From NCBI GenBank assembly GCA_902614065.1, contig CACMJT010000009.1, forward strand, positions 1 to 64,000: a stretch of 64,000 nt of DNA, given 5' to 3'. The translations under genes were made by a program, and so were the position numbers. Position 1 is the first letter of the stretch, and each line of letters opens with the position of its first letter. This stretch comes from an uncultured Bacteroidota bacterium. Its GTDB lineage: Bacteria; Bacteroidota; Bacteroidia; Flavobacteriales; Flavobacteriaceae. Positions 3,524 through 6,801 of this stretch are shown piece after piece. Under the pieces are notes generated by a model that worked only from the letters and a program-made list of their open reading frames with translations, was not told the origin of the DNA and did no database searches.

Positions 3524-5338
3524 ATGTTTTTTACTAGAGTAATAAAGAATTTAAAATTATTTAAGAAGGAGTTTATTCTTAATATTTTATTCAGTGCTTT
3601 GTATGCTCTTTTTAGTGCTATTGCATTTTTCTCTCTTATGCCAATGCTGGAGGTATTATTTAATGGTACAAATCAAACCATTGTTAAACCCGATTTTGAT
3701 TCATCATTAAATTTGGGAAGTTTTTTAGAAAACTGGTTAAATTACCAAGTTGTTGTATTTGCAGGACAAGACAATCAAAAAGCAATTTTATTTGTTGTGT
3801 TTGTTGTTATTTTCTTGTTTTTTTTAAAAAATGTCTTCAATTATTTTGCTCTTTTCTTTTCAACAATCATGAGAAATGGAGTTATTAGAATTATTAGAAA
3901 ACAAATATTTGAAAGCCTAATTGTTCTTCCAATGAGTTTTTTTTCAAAAAATAAGAAAGGTGATGTTATTTCTAGAATAACTTCAGATGTCATTGAAGTT
4001 CAAAATTCTTACCTATCGATTATTGAAATTTTTATTAGAGATCCTTTATCCATAATTTTTACAATAACAGCAATGTTTATAATTAGCTTGGAACTCACTT
4101 TATTTGTAATCGTTTTCATTCCAGTTTCAGCATTTATTATTTCTTACATAGGTAAAACATTAAGAAGAAGATCTTTAATTGTTCAAAAAGAACAAGGTGA
4201 ATTAACATCGATAACTGAGGAAACCTTAAATGGAATTAGTGTAATTAAAGCTTTTGTTTCAGAAACCTTCTTTACTAAAAAGTTTCTTAAATCTAATTCA
4301 AAATTTTTTAAATATTCAAATAGCTTAGTAAATCGACAAAATATTGCAGCTCCTCTAAGTGAATTTCTTGGAATATTAGTGATCGGAGTTTTGCTTTGGT
4401 ATGGAGGAAAATTAGTTTTAATTGACATGAACTTAAAACCTGCTGCTTTTATAACTTACATGGGCTTAGCATATGGGGTATTGACACCTGCTAAATCAAT
4501 TAGTAAAGCACTATATGCTTTAAAAAAAGGGAATGCTGCTGCCGAAAGGGTTTATGAACTTATCGACTCAGAAAATGAATTTGAGTTACAAAATCTAGAA
4601 AATATTAAATCCTTTAATAAAAAAATTGAAATAAAAAATGTTTCGTTTACTTACGATGAAGCAGAGGTTTTAAAAAATATTAACCTAAAAATAAAAAAGG
4701 GAGAGACCTTAGCAATAGTTGGACCATCAGGAAGTGGAAAATCTACCCTTGCAAATCTTTTACCTAGGTTTTATAATTACTCATCTGGTAAAATATTGAT
4801 TGATGGAATTGAACTAAAAAAAATCAGCAAGAGGAGTGTTCGATCACTAATAGGAATTGTTGGTCAAGAATCTATCCTATTTAATGGCACTATTAGAGAT
4901 AATATATTGTTAGGAAAAAAAATTGATGATGATGAGGTGTATGAAGCCCTTAAAACTGCTAATGCCATTGACTTTATTAATGAATTTAGTAATAAGTTGG
5001 ACCATAAAATAGCAGACAATGGTGCAAACCTTTCAGGAGGACAAAAGCAACGAATTTCCATTGCTCGTGCTATTATTTCAAAATCTCCAATCCTAATTTT
5101 AGATGAGGCTACATCATCTCTTGATTCAAAATCTGAAAAACTTGTTCAAGAAGCACTTAAAAAGCTTATGCATAACAAAACATCAATTGTAATAGCACAT
5201 AGATTGTCTACTGTTAAAAATGCCCAAAATATTGTTGTTTTGGATAAAGGTAAAGTTATTGAACAAGGTACTCATGATGATTTAATAAAGAAAAAAGGGG
5301 TTTACAATAATTTAATATCATTACAGTCCTTAAGTTGA
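3524..5338 (+). CDS. ABC transporter, fused permease/ATPase (MsbA-like exporter)
   Basis: This 604-residue half-transporter has an N-terminal six-helix export domain (about 15-330) and a C-terminal nucleotide-binding domain. Walker A is GPSGSGKST (400-408), the signature is LSGGQKQR (503-510), and Walker B ends in Asp527-Glu528 followed by the D-loop SSLD; the H-loop His is in IAHRLS. It should act as a homodimer in the inner membrane, flipping or exporting a hydrophobic substrate such as a lipid or glycolipid. The substrate is unknown. Its start touches the stop of the mutase gene and it follows a membrane glycosyltransferase, so glycolipid export is a reasonable guess. Confidence 0.9.
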   Translation: MFFTRVIKNLKLFKKEFILNILFSALYALFSAIAFFSLMPMLEVLFNGTNQTIVKPDFDSSLNLGSFLENWLNYQVVVFAGQDNQKAILFVVFVVIFLFFLKNVFNYFALFFSTIMRNGVIRIIRKQIFESLIVLPMSFFSKNKKGDVISRITSDVIEVQNSYLSIIEIFIRDPLSIIFTITAMFIISLELTLFVIVFIPVSAFIISYIGKTLRRRSLIVQKEQGELTSITEETLNGISVIKAFVSETFFTKKFLKSNSKFFKYSNSLVNRQNIAAPLSEFLGILVIGVLLWYGGKLVLIDMNLKPAAFITYMGLAYGVLTPAKSISKALYALKKGNAAAERVYELIDSENEFELQNLENIKSFNKKIEIKNVSFTYDEAEVLKNINLKIKKGETLAIVGPSGSGKSTLANLLPRFYNYSSGKILIDGIELKKISKRSVRSLIGIVGQESILFNGTIRDNILLGKKIDDDEVYEALKTANAIDFINEFSNKLDHKIADNGANLSGGQKQRISIARAIISKSPILILDEATSSLDSKSEKLVQEALKKLMHNKTSIVIAHRLSTVKNAQNIVVLDKGKVIEQGTHDDLIKKKGVYNNLISLQSLS

Positions 5339-5354
5339 TTTTAATAAATATTTT

Positions 5355-5933
5355 ATGAATCGAAAGAAATCAGTTCTAATATCAGCGCAAGAAAAAGAGT
5401 TATTACAAAGACTAAAAAACTCCAAATCTAAAGATAATGCTTTCAGGGAATTGGTTAATCAAAGTAAAAAAAATCTATACTTTCAAATCAGAAGATTATT
5501 GTTAAATCATGAAGATACAAACGATGTGTTACAAAATGTATATTTAAAAATTTATAGATCAATTCAAAAATTCAAAGAAGAAAGTAAACTATCAACATGG
5601 ATGTATAGAATTGCTTATAACGAATCAATCAATTATTTAAAATCAAAAGAAAAAAAATATTTTTTTAGCTCAGAAATAATGTACAATACAATGATTAATA
5701 ACTTGAGGCAAGATCCATATTTTGATGGCGATGAATTAGACATTAAACTACAAGGAATAATCGCTAAACTCCCTCCCAAACAAAAGTTAGTTTTTCAAAT
5801 GAAGTATTATGATGATTTGAAGTTTAAAGAAATATCCCAAATACTTGGAACATCAGTTGGTGCTTTAAAGACATCATATCATCTTGCGAAAAATAAAATA
5901 AAAAAGGAAATATCTGAAAATCAAACCTTTTAA
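5355..5933 (+). CDS. ECF-type RNA polymerase sigma-70 factor
   Basis: This 192-residue alternative sigma factor has the two-domain ECF layout. Region 2 (about 25-95) includes DTNDVLQNVYLKIY and the -10-reading segment LSTWMYRIAYN. Region 4 (about 135-185) has the helix-turn-helix LKFKEISQILGTSVGALKT. There is no region 1 or 3. The two genes after it encode a one-pass membrane protein and a secreted helical protein, the arrangement expected for a sigma factor held by a membrane anti-sigma and tuned by an envelope sensor. The signal and regulon are unknown. Confidence 0.92.
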   Translation: MNRKKSVLISAQEKELLQRLKNSKSKDNAFRELVNQSKKNLYFQIRRLLLNHEDTNDVLQNVYLKIYRSIQKFKEESKLSTWMYRIAYNESINYLKSKEKKYFFSSEIMYNTMINNLRQDPYFDGDELDIKLQGIIAKLPPKQKLVFQMKYYDDLKFKEISQILGTSVGALKTSYHLAKNKIKKEISENQTF

Positions 5934-5954
5934 TAAATCTGTTGTCATAATTAT

Positions 5955-6374
5955 ATGAGAAAAAGTAATTCATTTAAAGTTCCCGAAAAATATTTTGAGA
6001 ATATTGATTTTGAAATTTTAGAAAAATTAAAATTCAAAAAAAATGTTTTTACTTTTCCGCAAAACTATTTTGAAAATATTGATTCCGAAAAAATTATTGA
6101 AAAAGAAAGATCAAGGTCTTTTTACAGAAATTTACTAATTACAAGTACAGTGACCATGTGTCTAATGATCTTATTAATTCTCAATACTTTTACTGAAAAA
6201 GAATTTGTTGATGAAACATTTTTAGTCAATGATATTCTCGAGGAAAATTTTGATTACATGAATCAAAACATTATCATCAACCGATATTCCTCAAACTACA
6301 TATATCAAAACTATGATAATCAGATAATTATGTCTAGTTTTGATAGCGATTTTGATTATTTAACAATTGATTAG
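5955..6374 (+). CDS. Single-pass membrane protein, putative anti-sigma-like partner of the ECF factor
   Basis: I do not recognise a named family. The 139 residues comprise a charged, probably cytoplasmic N-terminal part (1-57), one membrane helix at about 58-79, and an acidic, Asn/Tyr-rich C-terminal part of about 60 residues likely in the periplasm. The N-terminal part holds two copies of a short motif, VPEKYFENID (9-18) and FPQNYFENID (34-43), 25 residues apart. The topology and position between an ECF sigma gene and a secreted sensor suggest it holds the sigma factor at the membrane. This is inference; there is no zinc-finger anti-sigma motif. Confidence 0.6.
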   Translation: MRKSNSFKVPEKYFENIDFEILEKLKFKKNVFTFPQNYFENIDSEKIIEKERSRSFYRNLLITSTVTMCLMILLILNTFTEKEFVDETFLVNDILEENFDYMNQNIIINRYSSNYIYQNYDNQIIMSSFDSDFDYLTID

Positions 6375-6801
6375 AATTTTATTAATATTATTTCTCTTTG
6401 TTTTTCAAAGTATTTCTGCTCAGGATGATGCAAAAAGAATGACGCAAGAAAAATTCTATGCTGAAAAAAAATTGTTTATTCTTAATGAATTAGAATTGAA
6501 TGAAGATATTGAAAAAAAATTTTGGGAGGTGTATTCTAAATATGACGCACAAAGGCTAATCTTAAGCCGAGATATTACATTGACAAACAGGAAACTTCTT
6601 CAAAATAAAATAATTGAAGATTTTGAGATTAAAGAATTGATTCAAAAAACTTATGAAAATGGTTCAAAAAGTTTAGAATTAAAAAAAAATATGATGTCAG
6701 AACTTTCCAAAATTATAGATAATGGAAATCTTGTTAGACTCCCCTCAGTTGAGTTTAAATTCAGACAACTTATGATTTCGAGGGCTAGAAATAATAAATA
6801 A
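6367..6801 (+). CDS. Secreted helical protein resembling 'sensor of ECF-type sigma factor'
   Basis: This 144-residue protein has a clear signal peptide (about 1-18, ending SISAQ) and then an almost wholly helical, charged body with a CpxP/Spy-like look. The stretch LNEDIEKKFWEVYSKYD closely resembles proteins annotated as sensors of ECF sigma factors in flavobacteria, which carry a similar L-x-E-x-x-x-x-F-W-x-x-Y pattern. It should sit in the periplasm. The start is a TTG overlapping the previous gene by eight bases, the only sensible start in front of the signal peptide, which suggests translational coupling. The sensed signal is unknown. Confidence 0.68.
   Translation: MIRILLILFLFVFQSISAQDDAKRMTQEKFYAEKKLFILNELELNEDIEKKFWEVYSKYDAQRLILSRDITLTNRKLLQNKIIEDFEIKELIQKTYENGSKSLELKKNMMSELSKIIDNGNLVRLPSVEFKFRQLMISRARNNK

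Follow-up and report, generated by a model that had tools for sequence, protein, structure and literature searches.

A conserved Bacteroidia cassette of an extracytoplasmic function sigma factor, a one-helix membrane protein with a repeated, proposed sigma-docking module, and a secreted helical protein

In a 64,000-nucleotide stretch of DNA from an uncultured Bacteroidota bacterium of the Flavobacteriaceae (assembly GCA_902614065.1, contig CACMJT010000009.1, positions 1 to 64,000 of the forward strand; hereafter the window), three consecutive genes encode an extracytoplasmic function (ECF) sigma factor, a membrane protein with one helix, and a secreted all-helical protein laid out like Spy and CpxP. 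The trio is one copy of a cassette conserved across the class Bacteroidia, and chance was excluded as the cause of this arrangement, since the same gene order recurs in genomes across the class. Until the envelope is stressed, the membrane protein probably keeps the sigma factor inactive by means of a short docking sequence that occurs in repeats. The system itself is of a known kind; what looks undescribed is its repeated sigma-docking module, together with the class-wide use of that module.

The genome assembly behind the window comprises 1.36 Mb in 24 contigs and is 87% complete. All three genes of the trio lie on the forward strand (Table 1), exactly as listed in a first-pass annotation made from the letters of the window alone. 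That annotation had called the genes partly overlapping, which is true of the second and third (8 bases), and incorrect for the first and second, which are separated by a gap of 21 bases. Its individual assignments agreed with the searches reported here: Sigma70_r2 and Sigma70_r4_2 both exceeded the Pfam cut-offs in the first product, the second product has a single strongly hydrophobic stretch and fits no described anti-sigma family, and the third product has a signal-peptide-like start and contains the quoted pattern.

Conservation of the cassette

Named genomes were scanned for the sigma factor, and 80 loci were kept. The next gene encoded a one-helix protein in 74 of these sigma-anchored loci, and 72 of the 74 proteins carried the docking module described below. 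Five of the six remaining loci (L034, L050, L059, L063, L065) reach a contig edge within about 400 bases of the sigma gene, leaving L051 as the one real exception to the pairing. A third gene, recognised by a lenient pattern (LTxxQ or FWxY plus a hydrophobic start), was found in 67 of the 80 loci, with 17 of the 67 being of the FW type, as in the window.

The pairing was also searched from the membrane protein, using a profile of 66 such proteins (A1). At an expectation value (E) of 0.001 or better, this profile matched 168 of 247 class genomes and 145 of the 215 more complete ones, both counts being upper bounds because weak matches also fall on other proteins. From these matches 69 loci were selected (29 by rank, 40 hand-chosen across lower ranks and long open reading frames (ORFs)), 68 of them with a candidate ORF, and a sigma gene was found upstream in 64 and a third gene downstream in 59 of the 68. 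After removing five loci judged unrelated by sequence (L145, L146, L147, L150, L153), the sigma gene adjoined the membrane gene in 61 of 63 loci, and the third gene was present in 59. The two without an adjacent sigma gene were L118, which lies near a contig edge, and L111, where a 339-codon gene stands between the sigma and membrane genes. All three genes were also found in 21 of 21 further hand-picked loci (20 from the order of L051's genome, with short ORFs favoured, and one from outside the class), two of which, L227 and L230, repeat earlier membrane-anchored loci. Sampling across the phylum gave 43 matching genomes, 42 inside the class and one outside (14 of the 63 genomes listed were from outside the class), and 135 others gave no match.

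Dedication of the pairing was assessed in four genomes by examining 60 ECF genes: 18 in G192, 12 in G252, 20 in G036 and 10 of the 27 in G098. For G192, G252 and G036, the longest sigma genes, which are of the primary type, were omitted. A sigma ORF was found for 59 of the 60. Among these 59, one ECF gene per genome had a module-bearing partner; the sigma factors of these four pairs scored 248.5–257.1 bits on the sigma profile, and none of the other 55 exceeded 107.1 bits. The membrane protein is therefore a dedicated one-pass partner of an ECF sigma factor, rather than a protein found widely without a sigma gene beside it, which the first-pass annotation had named as one of the outcomes that would refute its proposal. 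The partner at L259 gave a single match to the module pattern in an otherwise different protein. By eye, partners of other ECF sigma factors (L256, L276, L295, L306) carry an N-terminal pattern of approximately P[SP]xxxWxxLxxxL before the helix, and may be another unnamed anti-sigma type.

The closest sigma factor among the named genomes, at 98% identity, was that of uncultured Bacteroidetes isolate AG-900-K16 (locus L031). A match at E 1.5e-83 or better was obtained in 8 of 23 partial genomes of the genus; within the genus, the sigma factor is either patchily distributed or missed by incomplete assemblies. The window's own genome contains two ECF-like genes at E 0.001 with NF058625, and no module-bearing partner was seen beside the second. 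The [YF][FY]xG sequence of the sigma linker was tried as a partner marker and rejected as too variable (58/80).

The membrane protein and its repeated module

The module consists of [V/I/T/L]-P-x-x-Y-F (in short, [V/I]PxxYF) followed by a predicted helix. A census of 138 distinct proteins (the window protein, 74 sigma-anchored and 63 membrane-anchored) counted 217 modules before the membrane helix and none after it, whereas shuffling the N-terminal parts of the whole set gave a mean of 3.6 and a maximum of 11. One copy was present in 93 proteins, two in the window protein, and up to seven elsewhere, with a commonest spacing of 29 residues; three proteins (L094, L110, L180) had none by the strict pattern. 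The cytoplasmic segment of the window protein is about 58 residues long. Across the family, the 12 residues before the helix have a mean charge of +2.7 and the 12 after it −0.6, and this basic flank, together with the acidic tail behind the helix, fits a cytoplasmic N-terminus.

No fitting Pfam or NCBIfam match was obtained for the window protein or its relatives. The class I zinc motif HxxxCxxC was absent from the window protein and from all 174 distinct relatives, and a sequence search of the PDB up to E 1 listed four entries whose names mark them as unrelated (the best, at E 0.03, is a globin), with no CnrY-chain match. A motif search of open-licence papers on Bacteroidota anti-sigma factors yielded none with the string VPxGYF. 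The NCBIfam anti-sigma model LIMLP_03685 matched 5 of 66 membrane-protein relatives weakly (best E 0.0017), and was counted in favour of an anti-sigma function. Pfam TRM and NCBIfam PRK07164 matches on the second and third proteins were weak and under cut-off, and were set aside as chance.

We consider the membrane protein very likely to be the cognate anti-sigma factor, and hold with moderate confidence that the [V/I]PxxYF module is its sigma-docking element. Inhibition and activation look the same from conserved pairing alone, which would equally suit a positive partner, that is, a co-activator or a membrane tether needed for sigma activity. In the cirY-cirZ-spy operon of Phocaeicola vulgatus, published in 2026, the gene order is the same, and when cirZ is deleted, expression of cirY, spy and two downstream genes goes up, so that the sigma factor's own operon is derepressed (PMC13114119); a positive role is thus highly unlikely. 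Within the anti-sigma interpretation, it is doubtful that tandem docking modules make up an anti-sigma class peculiar to Bacteroidia, in which one membrane protein holds several sigma molecules. Such a multivalent store, if true, would allow graded or cooperative release, with a capacity that evolves by repeat number.

Two kinds of unusual partner were observed. At L151 (1314-2351), the partner has seven tandem modules that are closely alike. Some Bacteroidales partners are 451-462 amino acids long (L077, 1177-2529; L106, 3595-4974; L214), with one module, the helix and a long linker; a C-terminal CHU_C domain (PF13585) was present in those of L077 and L106, the two tested, and no Spy-like gene was found after the long partner at these two loci.

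Structural modelling of the sigma factor and module

Since the sigma and membrane genes are in one reading frame, they were read as one fused chain, with stops as glycine, and 29 such chains were aligned and used for AlphaFold2 modelling (predicted template modelling score (pTM) 0.61, short tether). The sigma part of the model was confident, and in the membrane protein module 1 alone was confident: the predicted local distance difference test score (pLDDT) averaged 87 over chain residues 211-220 (E11-E20), and was about 50 for module 2 and slightly above that for the helix region. Across the entire model, DSSP assigned bridges to just two residues, 123 in the sigma linker (DPYFDGDE) and, within module 1, residue 207. 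Most simply, these two pair with each other, and module 1 appears to touch the sigma factor in the model.

Structural comparison of the modelled sigma part gave SigW of the SigW-RsiW complex (Z 17.2, root-mean-square deviation (rmsd) 2.6 over 158) and CnrH of the CnrH-CnrY complex (Z 15.8, rmsd 2.2 over 154), so that the best matches of the model are inhibitor-bound sigma factors of the wrapped type. Several RNA-polymerase-bound sigma factors aligned poorly as wholes, with rmsd above 20.

The secreted protein

The third product was modelled as an all-helical protein (Table 1). The window protein had no Pfam match to the Spy/CpxP family PF07813 (LTXXQ); among 37 third-gene relatives, PF07813 matched 11, Pfam Metal_resist two, NCBIfam Spy one, and NF058626 one (E 0.0091). 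The third-protein profile had no match among PDB sequences at E 0.1. We judge it rather likely that the switch has the secreted protein among its targets; in P. vulgatus, the spy gene is a target of the sigma factor (PMC13114119).

Metal sensing was considered as an alternative, with the secreted protein acting as a CnrX-like metal-binding sensor that signals to a membrane anti-sigma factor, as in a CnrYXH-like system. Sensors of the CnrX type have metal-coordinating histidines. In its list of parts the cassette agrees with CnrYXH, CnrH from the CnrY complex is among the matches of the sigma model, Metal_resist occurs among the third-gene relatives as given above, and the best structural rows for the secreted-protein model were CnrX (Z 8.5) and ZraP (Z 8.3), above CpxP (Z 7.2). 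Values of Z near 8 are, however, common for helical bundles, and Foldseek returned no match for this model with E at or below 0.001. The window protein contains no His or Cys, which speaks against metal sensing, and His was absent from the mature part in 21 of 107 distinct relatives. Taken with these points, a metal sensor is very improbable.

The secreted protein may also be an input of the switch, a role compatible with its being a target, and one that we regard as tentative, somewhat less probable than even. Here it would act as a CpxP-like inhibitor on the acidic tail of the membrane protein, from which misfolded proteins would titrate it, freeing the sigma factor. In 59 of the 63 loci judged genuine, the third gene lies downstream of the pair, and across 107 distinct pairs the membrane-protein tails are acidic (mean charge −14) and the mature Spy-like proteins basic (mean +5); these opposite charges are, however, uncorrelated across the pairs (Spearman 0.05). 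Further points against an input role are that the third gene was not found in L040, L044, L077 and L106, that it lies about 1 kb further away in Polaribacter loci, that it is cut short in L033 and L243, and that the published spy gene is a sigma target (PMC13114119). The first-pass annotation had cast the secreted protein as a sensor, a role that stays tentative, the nearest published system having spy as sigma target; its proposal of a dedicated one-pass partner for the ECF sigma factor stood, and the module, the spread through Bacteroidia and the published gene order were absent from it.

The secreted gene of L033 and L243 stops after 78 codons; identical proteins are encoded at both loci, which probably represent a single genome found twice. 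In Polaribacter loci, L071 among them, the membrane and Spy-like genes are separated by a lipoprotein-like gene of about 290 codons.

Proposed mechanism

The trio is likely, in our assessment with good confidence, an envelope-stress switch in which the membrane protein serves as cognate anti-sigma factor, docking through its cytoplasmic modules. The [V/I]PxxYF modules would dock on the sigma factor and keep it, in a closed form, off RNA polymerase and at the membrane. An envelope disturbance would be sensed by the acidic periplasmic tail, either by itself or via the Spy-like protein, and would free the sigma factor, which would then transcribe its own operon, so that Spy-like chaperone is made, probably damping the signal. 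The inhibition and autoregulation steps are inferred by analogy with the published cirYZ-spy operon (PMC13114119), and docking of module 1 on the sigma factor is predicted from the fused model.

Several observations weigh against this mechanism. Weak A1 matches also land on partners of other ECF kinds. In G305, the genome of L051, a membrane gene stands on a different contig with no sigma gene next to it, so that adjacency is not absolute. RseA-type complexes aligned poorly to the sigma part (1or7, rmsd 11.6), the five fused models ranged from 53.7 to 70.1 in mean pLDDT, at the pTM given above and with 29 sequences and tethered parts, and a compact form is likewise considered for free ECF sigma factors (PMC4598750). 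Because the parts were tethered, the contact was read from pLDDT and DSSP alone, and the free sigma factor may be compact, docking of module 1 is a prediction, not a demonstration. Covariation was calculated as mutual information between single-module partners and their sigma factors (81 distinct pairs), with sigma-Spy pairs as the control, and was weakly enriched, with 1.10% of column pairs above z 3 versus 0.45% for the control in the same genomes; the highest single value belonged to the control, and covariation was discarded as deciding evidence since the excess was too weak. The lack of correlation between tail and Spy-like charges counts on the same side. Finally, the P. vulgatus regulon is not needed under the inducing condition, where insertions in the cirYZ-spy genes are not depleted (PMC13114119).

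Comparison with known systems

A published survey placed class I anti-sigma domains beside only 6% of Bacteroidetes ECF sigma factors, versus an average of 32%, leaving the control of the rest open (PMC7406223). The cassette offers one concrete, widely conserved answer to how the remaining ones are controlled, with a motif that is short and mutable. Its membrane protein resembles class I (ASDI, including the zinc form) in having a cytoplasmic sigma-binding part, one helix and an extracytoplasmic part, and differs in lacking HxxxCxxC in the 174 distinct relatives and any fitting Pfam match.

By gene order and description, the nearest system is cirY-cirZ-spy, with the same succession of ECF sigma factor, membrane anti-sigma factor and Spy-like protein. 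Unlike the window, where the trio is followed by a 1214-codon ORF, the cirYZ operon has a hydrolase gene and a glucosaminidase-LysM gene downstream. A search of 148 genomes from the order of L051's genome, with the listed matches compared by eye, showed no co-directional glucosaminidase gene beside the trio among the matches listed, and one case on the same contig (G365:C8), about 5 kb from the trio and on the other strand. The cassette may link a marine, reduced-genome organism to the colitis-induced cirYZ-spy of a gut symbiont, in which case results in one tractable species would carry over to many others.

CnrH-CnrY-CnrX of Cupriavidus metallidurans likewise combines an ECF sigma factor, a membrane anti-sigma factor without zinc motif and a periplasmic helical partner (PMC4598750), CnrY being class II (PMC7406223). 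In contrast, the window partner fits no described anti-sigma family and has the repeated [V/I]PxxYF, and the secreted protein is free of His and Cys. CnrY-like class II proteins embrace sigma2 and sigma4 with a short cytoplasmic segment. The window protein has a short segment of about 58 residues, and the tethered fused model would place one module on the sigma factor.

The dual membrane-spanning Dma/Reo anti-sigma factors are also Bacteroidota membrane proteins beside an ECF sigma gene and linked to the envelope (PMC9308784, PMC13114119). They reach the outer membrane, whereas the window protein, of 139 residues, ends about 60 residues past its only helix. In a paper on TamL, the term anti-sigma occurs among the references alone. 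SigW-1 (BT1817) of Bacteroides thetaiotaomicron (ECF251), with the transmembrane protein BT1816, is a lead by description: here too, within the same class, a transmembrane protein accompanies an ECF sigma factor. It differs in that the excerpted source mentions no Spy-like third gene (PMC12596196). The curated families NF058625 (GFO_1088/PG0214 family ECF sigma) and NF058626 (GFO_1090) have neighbouring locus numbers; the window sigma factor scored well against the Bacteroidota family NF058625, at 90.4 bits, but under its curated cut-off of 130 bits.

Feature coordinates and neighbouring genes

Table 1. Features of the trio, with positions in the window.
Feature	Position	Strand	Basis
ECF sigma factor, 192 amino acids, sigma2 and sigma4 domains	5355..5933	+	Pfam cut-offs exceeded by Sigma70_r2 (46.3 bits) and Sigma70_r4_2 (52.1 bits); TIGR02937 superfamily over cut-off
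DPYFDGDE, residues 120-127, between sigma2 and sigma4	5712..5735	+	The fused model has just two bridge residues, of which residue 123 is one
One-pass membrane protein, 139 amino acids, proposed anti-sigma factor	5955..6374	+	No fitting Pfam or NCBIfam family; relatives adjoin an ECF sigma gene
Cytoplasmic docking module 1 (proposed), residues 7-26, FKVPEKYFENIDFEILEKLK	5973..6032	+	Motif census; mean pLDDT 87 for residues 11-20 in the fused model
Cytoplasmic docking module 2 (proposed), residues 32-50, FTFPQNYFENIDSEKIIEK	6048..6104	+	Motif census; low confidence in the fused model
Membrane helix, residues 60-78	6132..6188	+	Hydropathy; flank charges
Acidic periplasmic tail, 60 residues, net charge −11	6192..6371	+	Composition
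Secreted all-helical protein, 144 amino acids, TTG start, Spy/CpxP-like by layout, no His or Cys	6367..6801	+	Four-helix model, mean pLDDT 85.2; composition
Signal-peptide-like segment, residues 1-19	6367..6423	+	Read from sequence; Q19 is the invariant column in an alignment of 37 rows
LNEDIEKKFWEVYSKYD, counterpart of LTxxEAxxFWPIYN in relatives	6496..6546	+	Alignments; L44, F52 and W53 invariant in 18 rows

Promoter-like sites were near the shuffled level (15 versus 12.3). The ORF of 1214 codons after the trio is presumably purL. An ABC transporter gene (PF00664, PF00005; window 3524-5338) ends 16 bases 5′ of the sigma gene; it was rejected as part of the cassette, being a neighbour in only 4 of 77 loci, which are the four closest relatives.
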